This document shows positions 6,663-18,872 of a stretch of 36,765 bases of DNA, in pieces. Position 1 is the first letter of the stretch. Each line of letters starts with the position of its first letter. Below the pieces are notes generated by a model. That model saw only the letters and a program-made list of their open reading frames with translations. It was not told the DNA's origin and did no database searches. The stretch comes from Chlorobiota bacterium (GTDB lineage Bacteria; Bacteroidota; Ignavibacteria; Tepidaquicellales; OLB5), in the NCBI GenBank assembly GCA_022616535.1, contig JAKEEM010000005.1:1-36765 (forward strand), written 5' to 3'. The position numbers and the translations under genes are program-made.

Positions 6663-7919
6663 ATGAATTTTAAGCCTGATAGAGATTATGCAAGTATTTT
6701 AGACTCACAGGACCCTTTAAAATCATACAGGGATAAATTTTACATTCCCCAAAAGCCAAATGGAGAAGAGGTAATTTACTTTGCAGGAAATTCTCTTGGC
6801 CTTCAGCCAAAATCGGTTGGAGCAAATGTTGAGCAGGAGCTTAAGGATTGGGGAACAATGGGCGTGGAGGGGCACATGCATGCCAAAAATCCGTGGCTGC
6901 CGTATCATGAGTTTTTAACCAAGGAGACTGCAAAACTCGTCGGCGCAAAACTGGAAGAAGTGGTTAACATGAACTCCCTTACCGTAAATCTTCATTTAAT
7001 GATGGTTTCGTTTTACAGACCGACTCCCCAGAGGCACAAAATATTAATCGAAGCAAACGCATTTCCGTCTGACCATTACGCAGTTCAGTCGCAGATTAAA
7101 TTTCACGGATACAATCCCGCAGAAGCTCTAATTGAAATGAAACCCCGCGAGGGTGAAGCAATAATCAGGACAGAAGATATTGAATCATTAATCAAAAAAG
7201 AAGGGGACTCTATTGCATTAATAATGTTTGCAGGGGTTAACTACTACACAGGACAGGCGTTTGATTTTGAAAGTATAACCAAAGCAGGGCATGAAAAATG
7301 GTGCGTAGTTGGGTTTGATTTAGCTCATGCTGCCGGGAATCTAATACTAAACCTGCACGATTGGGATGTTGATTTTGCCGTCTGGTGCAACTACAAATAT
7401 TTAAACGGGGGACCCGGAGCCATTGGCGGAGCGTTTGTTCACAAAAAGCATTTGCTTGATATGAACATACCTAAATTTTGGGGATGGTGGGGGCAAGATA
7501 AAGCAACACGGTTTTTAATGCGCCATAACTTTCAGCCAATTCCGACAGTTGAAAGCTGGCAGTTAAGCAATCCTCCAATTTTACAGCTTGCCGCTTTGAA
7601 AGCATCACTCGATATTTTTGATGAAGCGGGAATGGATGCGTTAAGGGGAAAAAGCGAAAAGCTTACAGGATATATGGAATATCTAATTGATGAAAAAAAT
7701 GACGGCAATATTGAGATTATTACTCCAAAAGGCGTGAAGCAAAGGGGTTGTCAGCTTTCGCTGAGAGCAAAGACAAACGGGAAATCAATTCATAAAAAGC
7801 TTAATCGTGCCGGAGTAGTTTGTGACTGGCGGGAGCCGGATGTAATTCGTGTGGCACCTGTACCAATGTATAATACCTTTACGGATGTTTGGAAGTTTGT
7901 GGAAAATCTTTTTAAATAA
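6663..7919 (+). CDS. kynU: Kynureninase
   Basis: This PLP enzyme cleaves kynurenine or 3-hydroxykynurenine to (3-hydroxy)anthranilate and alanine. The 418 residues are the normal size. Family signs are the N-terminal VIYFAGNSLGLQP (about residues 37-49), the PLP-contacting FDLAHAAGN (D219, H222), and WCNYKYLNGGPGA with the PLP-binding lysine at about K245. C-terminal RAGVVCDWREPDVIRVAPVPMYN contains the carboxylate-binding region. It starts 7 bases after the FKBP gene and its TAA overlaps the ATG of kmo by one base (TAATG), so the two are translationally coupled. The order kynU-kmo with HAAO and ACMSD upstream makes 3-hydroxykynurenine the natural substrate. That last point is inference from context. 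Confidence 0.96.
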   Translation: MNFKPDRDYASILDSQDPLKSYRDKFYIPQKPNGEEVIYFAGNSLGLQPKSVGANVEQELKDWGTMGVEGHMHAKNPWLPYHEFLTKETAKLVGAKLEEVVNMNSLTVNLHLMMVSFYRPTPQRHKILIEANAFPSDHYAVQSQIKFHGYNPAEALIEMKPREGEAIIRTEDIESLIKKEGDSIALIMFAGVNYYTGQAFDFESITKAGHEKWCVVGFDLAHAAGNLILNLHDWDVDFAVWCNYKYLNGGPGAIGGAFVHKKHLLDMNIPKFWGWWGQDKATRFLMRHNFQPIPTVESWQLSNPPILQLAALKASLDIFDEAGMDALRGKSEKLTGYMEYLIDEKNDGNIEIITPKGVKQRGCQLSLRAKTNGKSIHKKLNRAGVVCDWREPDVIRVAPVPMYNTFTDVWKFVENLFK

Positions 7920-14613: not shown

Positions 14614-15939
14614 ATGAGCGTAGTAACCACAATACTTTACTTTTTGATAACCATAGTTATACTAGTTTTTGTGCACGAGTTTGGGCACTTTATTGCAGCC
14701 AAGCTGTGCAGGATGAGAGTGGATAAATTTTATCTTTTCTTTGATTTCTTTAACCTTCGTTTTTTTAAATTCGTAAAAGGCGATACCGAGTACGGTATAG
14801 GGGTATTTCCTCTTGGCGGCTATGTTAAAGTCGCAGGAATGATTGACGAAAGTATGGACAAGGATTTTATCGATAAACCGCCTCAGCCGTGGGAGTTCCG
14901 CTCAAAGCCTGTATGGCAAAGAATGTTTGTCATAACGGCAGGGGTAATAATGAACACCCTGCTGGCTTTTCTGATTTTTTACACCATTAACCTTATGCAG
15001 GGAAGAACGAGAATTGAAACGACAACGCTCGGTTACGTATCCCAGAATTCAGTTGCACAAAAGTACGGAATTGCTCACGGCGATAAAATAATTTCGATTA
15101 ACTCCAAACTTATTGAATATTGGGACGAAGTAAGAGGAAACATCTTCATTGAAAGTATGGGCGAGGATGTAAACCTTGAAATCCAAAGAGACGGTTCAAA
15201 AAGAGAAATATTTATTCCCAAAGATGATTTAAGGGATATTGGAGAAAGAACATTCGGAATATTTCCTCCCGATATGCTGCCTGAAATTCAGCAGGTTCTT
15301 CCCGATAAGCCCGCATCAAAAAGCGGCTTGCAAAATGGTGACATAATTATTGAAGCTGCAGGGCAAAAAATCAATCATTCACAGCAGTTCGTAGATATTA
15401 TTAAAGCGAATCCCGAAAAAGAAATAAGCTTTAAGTGGATGAGAAACGGCACCGAGATGAGCGGAGTTGTTAAGCCTGAGGCGGATAGCACCATTGGCAT
15501 TGGTATCGGTAAATATGTCGGGGCAGTTAAAAATATTAATTATAATGTAATAACTGCTGTACCGCAGGGATTTAATGATTTATGGCATTACGGGGTGGTA
15601 CTGTTTATGAAATCGATGTGGAAGATAATAAAGGGTGATATAGCGTTTTCCAAAGCTGTCGGGGGTCCGATTAAGATTGCTCAATATGCCGGTCAGTCAG
15701 CCGAAGGAGGATTTTTATCATTCCTTGGATTTATGGCGATGCTATCTATTACACTCGCTATAATTAATATTCTCCCCTTCCCCGCACTTGACGGCGGTCA
15801 TTTTGTGTTTCTGCTTTACGAGGGGATATTCAGAAAGCCGGTTTCCCATAAAGTGCAGATTGTGGTGCAGAATCTCGGCTTCATAATACTGATGCTTTTT
15901 ATGGCTTTTGTGGTTTATAACGATATAATACACATTTAA
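14614..15939 (+). CDS. rseP: RIP metalloprotease RseP (site-2 protease)
   Basis: A 441-residue intramembrane zinc protease that cleaves anti-sigma factors or signal-peptide remnants within the inner membrane. The zinc motif H21-E22-F-G-H25 lies in the first transmembrane helix (FVHEFGHFIAA). The second metal and helix motif NILPFPALDGGHFVF lies near residues 388-402. Between them are two PDZ-like segments, about residues 125-205 (YGIAHGDKIISINSK) and 215-290 (SGLQNGDIIIEAAGQK). Three further hydrophobic segments complete the topology. An AAGGAG at 14595-14600 overlaps the dxr stop and probably serves as ribosome-binding site at a longer than usual spacing. A clear hairpin terminator follows at 15963-15994. 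Confidence 0.95.
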   Translation: MSVVTTILYFLITIVILVFVHEFGHFIAAKLCRMRVDKFYLFFDFFNLRFFKFVKGDTEYGIGVFPLGGYVKVAGMIDESMDKDFIDKPPQPWEFRSKPVWQRMFVITAGVIMNTLLAFLIFYTINLMQGRTRIETTTLGYVSQNSVAQKYGIAHGDKIISINSKLIEYWDEVRGNIFIESMGEDVNLEIQRDGSKREIFIPKDDLRDIGERTFGIFPPDMLPEIQQVLPDKPASKSGLQNGDIIIEAAGQKINHSQQFVDIIKANPEKEISFKWMRNGTEMSGVVKPEADSTIGIGIGKYVGAVKNINYNVITAVPQGFNDLWHYGVVLFMKSMWKIIKGDIAFSKAVGGPIKIAQYAGQSAEGGFLSFLGFMAMLSITLAIINILPFPALDGGHFVFLLYEGIFRKPVSHKVQIVVQNLGFIILMLFMAFVVYNDIIHI

Positions 15940-15962: not shown

Positions 15963-15994
15963 GACCAATTAATTTTTATTGATTGGTCTTTTTT
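15963..15994 (+). terminator. Rho-independent terminator after rseP
   Basis: GACCAAT (15963-15969) pairs with ATTGGTC (15982-15988) across a 12-base loop and is followed by six T (15989-15994). It ends the dxr-rseP transcript and lies just before the serB-serA ATG at 16001. The TTG at 15983 falls within this hairpin and is therefore not a credible start. Confidence 0.85.
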
Positions 15995-16000
15995 ATTTTT

Positions 16001-17890
16001 ATGTATAAAAAGTATTTTATTATTGATTTCGACAGCACTTTCATAAAAGTGGAAGCGCTTGAAGAACTAGCCGAGATTTCTTTGAAAAAAGATAAGGGGA
16101 AGGAAACCAAAATCGCAAAGGTAAGAGAACTTACCCTCGGAGCAATGAACGGTGAGGTTTCTTTCACAAAGTCACTTAAGGAAAGAATAAGGCTTTTAAA
16201 TGCAAACAAGTCACATTTGGTTGCTCTTTCAAGAAAATTAAACAGCAAAATATCCCGTTCAATTATAAGCAATAAAAAGTTTTTTAAGGATTTTTCCAAA
16301 AATATAATAATTATCTCAGGCGGGTTTAAAGAATACATTTTGCCGGTTGTAAGTAAATTTCACATTTCGGAAAAACAGGTATATGCCAATACTTTTACGT
16401 TTGATAAGAAAGGCAATGTTACGGGCTTTGATTCAGCTAATCTGCTTGCAAAGAAAAACGGCAAGGCAAAATTAATCAAAAAATTAAATCTTAACGGGGA
16501 ACTGATTGCAATAGGCGACGGCCACACCGATTATGAATTAAAAAAATCAGGTCTTGTGCATAAGTTTTATGCTTTTACCGAAAATGTTGAAAGAGAAGTC
16601 GTTGCCCAAAAAGCCGACTATGTTACACCAAGTTTTGACGAGTTTTTGTATGTTTCAAAGCTCCCAATGTCAATTTCATATCCTAAAAACAGGATAAAGG
16701 TTCTGCTTCTTGAAAACATTCATAAAGATGCAGTGAGCTTATTTATAAATGAGGGCTATCGAACAGAGACTGTTTCCAAGAGTTTGAGTGAAAGAGAGCT
16801 TGCTGAGAGGATAAAAGATATATCCATACTTGGAATTCGCTCAAAAACTCATATTACGCAAAATGTTCTTAAGGAAGCAAAGAAACTTTTAGCCATCGGA
16901 GCTTTCTGCATTGGAACGAATCAAATTGATTTGGACGGCTGTTCAAATAGGGGAGTAATTGTCTTCAATGCACCTTTCAGCAACACTCGAAGCGTTGTGG
17001 AGCTGGTTATAGGGGAAATCATTATGCTTATGCGGGGGATTTTCGATAAAAGCTCCAAACTTCATAAGGGAGTTTGGAACAAGTCATCGGCTAACAGCTT
17101 CGAAGTCAGAGGCAAAAAGCTCGGAATTGTAGGCTATGGCAAAATCGGCTCACAGCTTTCTGTTCTTGCTGAAGATATGGGTATGGAGGTATATTATTAC
17201 GATATTCTCGAAAAGCTTGCACTGGGGAATGCTAAGAAATGCAGCTCTTTAAAAGAACTGATTAAAAAAGCGGATATAATAACAGTCCATATTGATGGCA
17301 ATGAGCAAAATCACAACTTAATTGGAGAGGGTGAATTTAAGCTAATGAAAGAAGGTGTTGTATTTTTAAACTTAAGCAGGGGATTTGTTGTTGATATAAA
17401 GTCACTTGTAAATAATATAAAGTCAGGAAAAATAAGAGGAGCCGCAATTGATGTGTTTCCACATGAACCTGAGAGCAACGATGAAAAGTTTATTTCCGAG
17501 CTTCAGTCTCTGCCGAATGTCATTTTAACACCGCATATCGGAGGCAGCACCAATGAGGCGCAGAAAGATATAGCGGGTTTTGTCCCTTCAAAGGTTATTG
17601 ATTTTATTAACAGCGGGAACTCATATTACAGCGTTAACTTTCCAAATATACAGCTCCCCTCATTTGAAAAGGCGCACAGGTTAATTCATATTCATCATAA
17701 TGTTCCGGGAGTGCTTGCAAACATAAACTCTATTTTCGCGAAGCACAATATAAATATTATCGGGCAGTATTTGAAAACTAATGAACTTATTGGATATGTA
17801 ATTACAGATATAAGTAAAAAATATAATCCTGAACTGATAAGTGAGCTGAAAAAGGTCGCCCACACGATAAAGTTCAGAATTTTATATTAA
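16001..17890 (+). CDS. Phosphoserine phosphatase-phosphoglycerate dehydrogenase fusion
   Basis: A 629-residue bifunctional enzyme for serine synthesis. Residues about 1-215 are a HAD-type SerB-like phosphatase. D9-F-D11-S-T with E18 (DFDSTFIKVEALEELA) is motif I, IIISGGFKEYI is motif II, and IGDGHTDYE is motif III. Residues about 225-629 are an E. coli-type SerA. GAFCIGTNQIDLDGC, FNAPFSNTRSVVELVIGE, the NAD fold LGIVGYGKIGSQL, LSRG(F)VVD with the catalytic Arg, AAIDVFPHEP and LTPHIGGST are all present, and a C-terminal ACT domain (HIHHNVPGVLANINSIF) may bind serine for feedback control. I start at ATG 16001 because earlier in-frame TTG 15983 is inside the terminator hairpin. The phosphoserine aminotransferase SerC is not in the window. 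Confidence 0.9.
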   Translation: MYKKYFIIDFDSTFIKVEALEELAEISLKKDKGKETKIAKVRELTLGAMNGEVSFTKSLKERIRLLNANKSHLVALSRKLNSKISRSIISNKKFFKDFSKNIIIISGGFKEYILPVVSKFHISEKQVYANTFTFDKKGNVTGFDSANLLAKKNGKAKLIKKLNLNGELIAIGDGHTDYELKKSGLVHKFYAFTENVEREVVAQKADYVTPSFDEFLYVSKLPMSISYPKNRIKVLLLENIHKDAVSLFINEGYRTETVSKSLSERELAERIKDISILGIRSKTHITQNVLKEAKKLLAIGAFCIGTNQIDLDGCSNRGVIVFNAPFSNTRSVVELVIGEIIMLMRGIFDKSSKLHKGVWNKSSANSFEVRGKKLGIVGYGKIGSQLSVLAEDMGMEVYYYDILEKLALGNAKKCSSLKELIKKADIITVHIDGNEQNHNLIGEGEFKLMKEGVVFLNLSRGFVVDIKSLVNNIKSGKIRGAAIDVFPHEPESNDEKFISELQSLPNVILTPHIGGSTNEAQKDIAGFVPSKVIDFINSGNSYYSVNFPNIQLPSFEKAHRLIHIHHNVPGVLANINSIFAKHNINIIGQYLKTNELIGYVITDISKKYNPELISELKKVAHTIKFRILY

Positions 17891-17900
17891 ATATTTCTGA

Positions 17901-18443
17901 ATGCATAGGAATATTAAAATACTTTTAACTGCATCGATACTGATTCACTCCGGGACAAACCTCCTTGCGCCTGTATTTGCTATTTATATTAAAGATATCG
18001 GGGGAACGATGATAGATGCAGGGGTAGCGGTCGGGGTTTATGCGATTTTAAAAGGTATTTTATATTTCGCTTTCAACAGGCTTAGCAAAGATAAGCTAAG
18101 CCACAAAGCAATGATTAGCGGGGGTTATTTTATTATGTTTGTTGGATACGTTTTGTATTTATTTGCTTACATTCCGTTTCATGTTTATTTAATACAGGCA
18201 GTGCTATCGATAGGTGAAACGATAATCACACCCTCGTGGAGCTCGGTTATAGCCGTATCATTGGAAAAGGGAAAGGAAAGGCACATTTACTCCCACTTTT
18301 ACGGATACAGGTCCTTTTTCGAAGGTCTTGGGGCAATCGCTGGCGGTTTGTTTGCGGTTGGATTCGGATTTAATATGCTATTTTTTTTGATGGCTGTGTT
18401 AGCTTTAACGTCATCGGCAATTTCGCTTTTTCTGAAAGAATAA
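17901..18443 (+). CDS. Half-size MFS-like membrane protein (six transmembrane segments)
   Basis: The 180-residue protein has about six hydrophobic segments (near residues 7-28, 40-58, 70-90, 94-112, 140-160 and 160-178). It shows the N-half signature of major facilitator transporters: an opening LLAPVFAIYIKDIGGTMIDAGVAVG loop-helix and a later RSFFEGLGAIAGGLFAVGFG. A standard MFS transporter has 12 segments and about 400 residues, so this is one half. The frame ends with a normal stop (18441) and a hairpin terminator immediately follows, so I see no sign of a broken second half downstream. It is 10 bases after the serB-serA stop and likely co-transcribed. It could dimerise or be a degraded transporter. 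Substrate unknown. Confidence 0.75.
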   Translation: MHRNIKILLTASILIHSGTNLLAPVFAIYIKDIGGTMIDAGVAVGVYAILKGILYFAFNRLSKDKLSHKAMISGGYFIMFVGYVLYLFAYIPFHVYLIQAVLSIGETIITPSWSSVIAVSLEKGKERHIYSHFYGYRSFFEGLGAIAGGLFAVGFGFNMLFFLMAVLALTSSAISLFLKE

Positions 18444-18497: not shown

Positions 18498-18872
18498 TTA
18501 TTTAATCTTTACAGGCAATTCACCGCCAACAATAAACTGACCGTTTATACCCTGTATATCGACAGGAATCTTATCACCCCATACGCTTCTGCCGTTAATC
18601 GATTTTAAATCAACAGAAAGGTTCCTGCCCGAGCTGCCTTCTATTTTTTGTATGTCAACAGGCATATTGCTTCCTGAGATTGAATAACCGTTTATGGATT
18701 TAAGATTAACATCCTGAACCTGCTGGAGCGCGTTGGCATCGTTTGGTGAAAAGTAAATATTTGTAACAATCAAAACCAGGCACGATGCAATTAACGAAAG
18801 CAGGATTTTTGAGTATTTATCAAGGTGAATTATGATTTTTTCATTTGCTCCGTTATTTGAAATTTTAAGCAT
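18498..18872 (-). CDS. Small single-pass membrane protein with tandem V-[DN]-[IL]-[QK] repeats
   Basis: A 124-residue protein that I do not recognise. Residues 1-21 are hydrophilic and basic, 22-41 form one transmembrane helix (KILLSLIASCLVLIVTNIYF), and the rest is probably periplasmic. From residue 55 four tandem units follow: VNLKSINGYSISGSNMP (55-71), VDIQKIEGSSGRNLS (72-86), VDLKSINGRSVWGDKIP (87-103), VDIQGINGQFIVGGELP (104-120), and a stub VKIK. The period of 15-17 with alternating V-x-[IL]-x and conserved Gly suggests a small beta-rich repeat stack. Monocistronic, with its own upstream gap, between a terminator and the divergent CorC-type gene. No known domain is obvious. Function unknown. 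Confidence 0.72.
   Translation of the reverse strand: MLKISNNGANEKIIIHLDKYSKILLSLIASCLVLIVTNIYFSPNDANALQQVQDVNLKSINGYSISGSNMPVDIQKIEGSSGRNLSVDLKSINGRSVWGDKIPVDIQGINGQFIVGGELPVKIK

Follow-up and report, generated by a model that had tools for sequence, protein, structure and literature searches.

A SerB-like phosphatase fused to a complete type II SerA in Ignavibacteria and Bacteroidota, a candidate bifunctional enzyme of serine synthesis with shortened relatives

Why should a phosphatase resembling SerB, which would act at the last step of serine synthesis, be joined in one chain to the phosphoglycerate dehydrogenase (PGDH) SerA, which acts at the first, and could the single ACT domain at the end of that chain serve both? 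The question is raised by one gene in a stretch of 36,765 nucleotides (the window), which is an entire contig (C55) of a 2.89-Mb assembly that is 98% complete; the named relatives at 68 to 75% identity are Ignavibacteria MAGs. The gene is a single frame on the forward strand, in which a SerB-like HAD phosphatase is followed by a complete SerA of the E. coli type (type II), ACT domain included. The first-pass annotation had proposed this order, phosphatase first, dehydrogenase after it and a complete ACT domain last in one polypeptide, and the matches to Pfam and NCBIfam profiles agree with it. The parts of the locus are as follows.

14614-15939, forward: rseP (site-2 protease), the upstream neighbour (Pfam M50/PDZ; tblastn)
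15963-16000, forward: terminator-like hairpin (15963-15988) and T-rich run reaching the fusion ATG (folding)
16001-17890, forward: serB-serA fusion gene, 629 aa, stop at 17888-17890 (ORF, Pfam and NCBIfam profiles, genome comparison)
16001-16648, forward: HAD-IB phosphoserine-phosphatase-like half, residues 1-216, with D9, D11, E18, R62, S106, G108, K155, D173 and D177 (TIGR00338, E 2.5e-23; PDB 3kd3 and human phosphoserine phosphatase; 108/108 family rows)
16649-16693, forward: junction, residues 217-231 (alignment)
16694-16993, forward: SerA substrate-binding domain, N-terminal part, residues 232-331 (PF00389; 1yba alignment)
16994-17572, forward: SerA NAD-binding domain, residues 332-524, with GxGxxG at 378-383, D401, R460, D484, E489 and H512 (PF02826 at 338-514)
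17573-17668, forward: substrate-binding domain, C-terminal helix and linker, residues 525-556 (1yba alignment; structure model)
17669-17887, forward: ACT domain, residues 557-629, with serine-site residues H565, N567 and N585 (PF22629; equivalents of E. coli H344/N346/N364)

The fused protein and its surroundings

The frame is open from a TTG at 15983, and its 629 residues are counted from the ATG at 16001. The hairpin at 15963-15988 (11 pairs; fold z score of -4.65) may terminate transcription of rseP or serve as a leader, and no Shine-Dalgarno sequence is in view before the fusion ATG. rseP lies upstream of the fusion gene in 15/15 genomes of the window's own family (f1), two of the matches being partial at locus ends, and it was not found by tblastn within the available flanks of the other compared fusion copies outside f1. 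Ten bases past the fusion gene, a 180-aa frame (17901-18443) matches the first half only of an MFS transporter model and is possibly a truncated transporter; its tblastn homologues in the compared loci are copies of the same locus only. Elsewhere in the window, a 124-aa frame on the reverse strand (18498-18872) contains repeats of a KSING/PVDI motif and matches no Pfam model, and a kynureninase-like gene (KYNU_C domain) lies at 6663-7919.

The assignment of the C-terminal half is straightforward. Residues 224-629 match the whole of the PRK11790 (NF008759) phosphoglycerate dehydrogenase model (639.9 bits, cut-off 404; model positions 4-410 of 410), and Pfam recognizes the catalytic and NAD-binding domains of 2-hydroxyacid dehydrogenases and a complete ACT_AHAS_ss domain at 561-624. 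The SerA motifs, reported as intact in the first-pass annotation, are indeed kept: R460, E489, H512 and the glycines G378, G380 and G383 are found in 72/72 full-fusion rows (68 of them distinct), as are all 23 of the catalytic, NAD cofactor and serine-site positions that were counted. In the alignment with 1yba, H565, N567 and N585 are the equivalents of E. coli H344, N346 and N364. The E. coli enzyme is a tetramer formed through contacts of its NAD domains and of its ACT domains, and its H344, N346 and N364' bind serine at the interface between ACT domains (PMC6300728). A Gly-Gly hinge is also known before its ACT domain (PMC6300728); this pair, at E. coli residues 336-337, is absent at the aligned place in the window protein, and it is not known to define type II enzymes. 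Among full fusions, dN/dS is 0.150 for the HAD half, 0.130 for the substrate domain, 0.114 for the NAD domain and 0.101 for the ACT domain.

The N-terminal half is more distant from its models. Residues 3-195 match the SerB model TIGR00338 with an E value of 2.5e-23 and 82.8 bits, which is below the curated cut-off of 144.15, and all fused frames in the 59 genomes compared and in 15 named Bacteroidota genomes likewise score under it; the HAD-IB subfamily cut-off is exceeded (TIGR01488, 52.5 bits versus 45). The closest PDB entries by sequence are the Francisella phosphoserine phosphatase-like protein 3kd3 (E 4.5e-25) and human phosphoserine phosphatase (PSP), and the alignment with human PSP extends across active-site and substrate residues. 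The HAD motifs are present as originally listed (D9, D11, S106-G107-G108 and G172-D173-G174-x-x-D177), and nine residues (D9, D11, E18, R62, S106, G108, K155, D173 and D177) are kept in 108/108 family rows. Two of the nine, E18 and R62, align with the Glu and Arg of human PSP that we take to hold phosphoserine. The middle Gly of SGG is variable, being Ser in 13/16 and Ser, Ala or Asn in 15/16 of the Cytophagales-side rows that have the position, and T176 is Ser in 18/18 Pedobacter-type rows of the compared alignment.

A single-chain model of the window protein (mean pLDDT 89.6, pTM 0.80) led Foldseek to Ser33/SerA structures, the E. coli SerA match being at 48% identity. The SYPK-type stretch of the junction (residues 217-231) also occurs at the N terminus of several unfused Bacteroidota SerAs, and a reading of locus L074 as a split fusion, given that such SerAs start in this way, is not supported.

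Distribution, origin and the shortened form

Fusions of this kind had been described as scattered; what emerges instead is one coherent family across the Ignavibacteria and several Bacteroidota families. Among the 59 genomes, that of the window included, the full fusion occurs in one frame in 26, comprising 13/15 in family f1, 13/29 in f2 and 0/15 in the other families of the class. Three more genomes (G011, G012 and G033) have copies that are cut or broken. One of these copies (L048; G011:C127:3254-5136) consists of three overlapping pieces with stops, which reflects either sequencing error or decay. The phylum was surveyed by an even draw of 392 genomes, again including that of the window, with the HAD family called at an E value of at most 1e-25 and its forms sorted by length. 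The family was present in 49/392 genomes, as 31 full fusions, 12 shortened forms and 6 HADs alone, and E. coli-type SerA exceeded its cut-off in 81/392, the listed frames being 31 fused and 50 unfused. Because the full-length fused frame recurs in 26/59 and 31/392 genomes, an assembly chimera is ruled out.

Named carriers of the full fusion include Emticicia, Lacihabitans, Persicitalea, Jiulongibacter and Cytophaga aurantiaca. The 18 named carriers of the shortened form comprise 17 titled Pedobacter, Nubsella or Sphingobacteriaceae and one Flavobacteriaceae, and the 12 shortened-form survey genomes, 11 in family f27 and one in f30, fall in the same clade as these; f27 would thus be the Sphingobacteriaceae, judging by this shared clade. 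The odd Flavobacteriaceae title belongs to 'Flavobacteriaceae bacterium PS02338' (L083, 5001-6287), whose HAD half lies next to that of Pedobacter xixiisoli and which is possibly mislabelled. A possible case of spread beyond the phylum is a MAG named Neisseriaceae (L071, 4980-6887), which carries a full fusion on a long branch inside the family, through transfer or mis-binning; it may be mis-binned.

The trees of both halves are compatible with one fusion event. The HAD tree, of 102 rows and with a bootstrap that had not fully converged, separates the solo HADs of families f21 and f24 from all fused rows (99/96) and unites the shortened forms in one clade (99/100). The solo HADs of family f37 branch at an unresolved fork and are possibly secondary losses. 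The SerA tree, built from 92 rows and rooted at the midpoint, places unfused SerAs of f21, f24, f13 and f20 next to the fused rows and 16 other unfused SerAs at the opposite end (100/99). For the fused SerAs, a single origin is weakly supported: the clade has support of 50/81 and occurs in 44% of bootstrap trees, and some long rows and two Planosporangium sequences, both unfused, are not placed. Sister lineages encode the halves separately. At locus L153 of family f24, the stop codon of the HAD gene overlaps the likely start codon of serA as ATGA, and in three f21 genomes the HAD and SerA genes are on different contigs. The simplest order would run from separate genes to an overlapping pair, to the fusion and then to excision, with its direction read from the rooting.

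The shortened homologues show what such an excision leaves. In 30/30 rows there is a gap from window residue 332 to 524 (29 rows) or 525 (1 row), so that the missing block is the NAD-binding domain that is inserted in the substrate-binding domain (Pfam 338-514), and with it went the catalytic Arg, Glu and His of SerA. The nine phosphatase residues and H565, N567 and N585 of the ACT domain are retained in all 30. Mean identity between shortened and full forms (65/72 full rows taken in) is 0.51 to 0.52 for the HAD half, 0.26 for the N-terminal part of the substrate domain, 0.40 to 0.47 for its C-terminal helix and 0.58 to 0.62 for the ACT domain; between two groups of full fusions the corresponding values are 0.49, 0.62, 0.54 and 0.63. 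The HAD and ACT domains are therefore about as conserved in the shortened forms as between intact fusions, whereas the remnant of the substrate domain has diverged (26% versus 62%). Within the shortened group, dN/dS is 0.025 for the HAD half, 0.040 for the remnant and 0.022 for the ACT domain, values that are rough because the usable pairs number 21, 18 and 17 and their dS is about 0.9 to 1.2; taken with its identity of 0.26, the value for the remnant indicates a segment that has diverged and is still constrained. The boundary common to 30/30 rows and dN/dS values of 0.02 to 0.04 rule out sequencing error or a pseudogene. A single-chain model of a Pedobacter example (L080; mean pLDDT 92.1, pTM 0.84) led Foldseek to both PSP and SerA chains. 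Since the excision removes the NAD-domain contact and leaves that of the ACT domain, the shortened protein could be expected, by analogy with E. coli SerA, to be an ACT-linked dimer of phosphatases for which serine binding would still be possible, a route by which an ACT domain might act on the phosphatase. E. coli-type SerA was over its cut-off in 0/12 shortened-form survey genomes, and other 2-hydroxyacid dehydrogenase genes were present in the eight named shortened-form genomes searched.

What the fusion may do

We put at roughly 70% the probability that this family is a bifunctional PGDH/PSP with one serine sensor, reduced in Sphingobacteriaceae to an ACT-bearing phosphatase. The C-terminal type II SerA would convert 3-phosphoglycerate to phosphohydroxypyruvate, a separate aminotransferase would turn this into O-phosphoserine, and the N-terminal HAD half, as the best SerB candidate of the genome, would take off the phosphate. 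The C-terminal ACT domains would pair between subunits and bind serine; as in E. coli SerA, this would inhibit the dehydrogenase, and within the shared assembly it would probably modulate the phosphatase too. In Sphingobacteriaceae, the NAD-binding domain would have been excised, presumably once another PGDH sufficed, and an ACT-bearing phosphatase would have been left. The architecture, the conserved residues, the lack of a comparable second SerB-like gene, a single clean excision and the unequal divergence of the domains are direct observations, from which we infer both activities, the binding of serine, the control of the phosphatase and the order of evolutionary events.

The fused HAD half is the only good SerB candidate of the window's genome. 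A search for a second serB, which the first-pass annotation had suggested, found no comparable gene: the fused frame scores 86.5 bits against TIGR00338, and the next matches, an MtnX-like HAD and an 812-aa frame, score 39.5 and 39. Across the 59 genomes, the fused frame and its cut or broken copies account for all 28 TIGR00338 matches above 65 bits, the next match being at 50 bits, and in 15/15 named Bacteroidota genomes (seven full, eight shortened) the fused or shortened frame is the sole SerB-like match at an E value of at most 1e-8. Several points count against the bifunctional reading: the HAD half scores under the SerB cut-off, a second PGDH-like gene could carry out the first step, the hinge is absent, the middle Gly of SGG is variable, the ACT domain may serve dimerization alone and the fused SerAs do not form a well-supported clade (50/81).

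The stronger proposition, that the serine-sensing ACT domain is a common brake on the first and last steps and that excision in Sphingobacteriaceae made a serine-regulated phosphatase out of a bifunctional enzyme, falls a little short of an even chance in our estimate. A single ACT domain could serve both activities, and the relatives that kept phosphatase and ACT and lost the dehydrogenase core lend this indirect support; equally, the domain may have been kept for dimerization alone. The latter possibility belongs to a wider account, to which we give a substantial minority of the probability, in which the fusion serves co-expression or assembly only: the ACT domain would regulate the dehydrogenase or nothing and would dimerize the shortened phosphatase, or the two halves would hold the aminotransferase between them. 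The ATGA overlap of the L153 gene pair at the likely start fits co-translation, the ACT domain is one of two dimer contacts in E. coli SerA and hence a possible dimer handle (PMC6300728), and the human serine enzymes have been proposed to form a 'serinosome' (PMC12318971). What speaks against assembly alone is that the residues contacting serine, and not just the interface, are kept in 30/30 shortened proteins.

It is rather unlikely that the SerA half is not the main PGDH, this role falling to a PGDH-like gene beside an aminotransferase and the fused SerA being redundant or having another role. Such a gene exists: at C10 of the same genome, a PGDH-like gene cut by the contig end (best NCBIfam model TIGR01327 PGDH, 192 bits on the part present, under the cut-off) adjoins a class V aminotransferase (best model the BhcA-type aspartate-glyoxylate aminotransferase, 269 bits, under the cut-off), so the fused SerA need not be the sole PGDH. 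The rest of this C10 dehydrogenase may lie on C20, where a fragment matches residues 435-538 of the fusion. A canonical serC (TIGR01364) had no match over the cut-off in this genome, and a role as phosphoserine aminotransferase ('SerC3') has been proposed for some class V aminotransferases encoded next to serA (PMC9026213). The same account gains from the absence of a full-length fused frame in 16/29 genomes of f2, a family of the same order (15 with none and one with a partial frame, some genomes being incomplete), and from the loss of the dehydrogenase core in the Sphingobacteriaceae type. It fits poorly with the retention of the catalytic and NAD positions of SerA in 72/72 full rows and with the dN/dS of 0.114 in the NAD-binding domain.

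An improbable alternative is that the HAD half acts on another phosphate ester, such as histidinol phosphate or glycerol phosphate, either in place of phosphoserine or in addition to it. E18 and R62, whose human counterparts presumably hold phosphoserine, are invariant in 108/108 rows, and the domain is fused to SerA or, in L153, encoded by a gene that overlaps serA, all of which argues for phosphoserine. The low score against the SerB model nevertheless leaves room for other substrates, and precedents exist: some Proteobacteria use SerB-like HADs as histidinol phosphatases (PMC5764234), and in algae glycerol is made by a PSP-like domain (PMC7468427). The only match in the window's genome over a histidinol-phosphatase-family cut-off is a 199-aa HAD-IIIA protein adjoining a starch-synthase-like gene (L209, 1381-1980, reverse strand, on C25). 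We dropped this protein as the histidinol phosphatase that would spare the fused HAD from histidine synthesis: it scores 128 and 120 bits against heptose-bisphosphate phosphatases versus 60 to 64 against HisB models, none over its own cut-off, so that the search yielded no histidinol phosphatase for this genome. That the HAD half is a dead remnant is unlikely, given nine active-site residues in 108/108 rows.

Annotation of this family is likely to show one half only. The window protein exceeds the NCBIfam cut-off for PGDH and not that for SerB, and the one model whose cut-off Pedobacter L080 exceeds is the general HAD-IB model, with the result that serB will seem to be absent. Table 1 of GapMind gives no SerB gap for Pedobacter or Echinicola (PMC7311316), and Data Set S2 of that work may hold genetic data on a member of the fusion family. 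Were serine to act through the ACT domain on both halves, one allosteric domain would be common to two nonconsecutive enzymes, and the excised form in culturable Pedobacter would be a natural domain-deletion experiment and a ready-made evolutionary control.

Relation to known systems

No description of a SerB-SerA fusion or of its excised form was found in the open-licence PMC literature, among the matches listed, and the nearest systems each share a part of the architecture. The E. coli type II PGDH (SerA; 1psd/1yba) has the same substrate, NAD-binding and ACT domains and the same catalytic and serine-site residues, but it lacks the N-terminal phosphatase and has the Gly-Gly hinge that the fusion lacks. 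The HAD-IB phosphoserine phosphatases (human 1nnl/6hyy and Francisella 3kd3) share with the HAD half the fold, the nucleophile and acid residues and the positions of the substrate-binding Glu and Arg; they are free-standing, whereas the HAD half is fused and falls below the TIGR00338 cut-off.

Other bifunctional enzymes combine related parts differently. The algal PSP-GPDH bidomain enzyme (Dunaliella 6iuy) also has an N-terminal PSP-like HAD and a C-terminal NAD dehydrogenase, but the dehydrogenase is a different one, the steps are consecutive and lead to glycerol, and no ACT domain is mentioned in the excerpted account (PMC7468427). The PGDH-PSAT proteins of oomycetes and brown algae likewise join two enzymes of the serine pathway, PGDH among them, but their steps are the consecutive 1 and 2, in contrast to steps 1 and 3 in the window fusion (PMC5715807, PMC2705460). 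Closest to the shortened form is mycobacterial SerB2 (ACT-ACT-PSP), an ACT-bearing phosphoserine phosphatase under serine control (PMC10564941, PMC4270767). Its ACT domains are N terminal and, in the excerpted accounts, it carries no SerA remnant, unlike the Pedobacter protein (PMC10564941, PMC4270767); SerB2 is likely the functional analogue of the shortened Pedobacter form.
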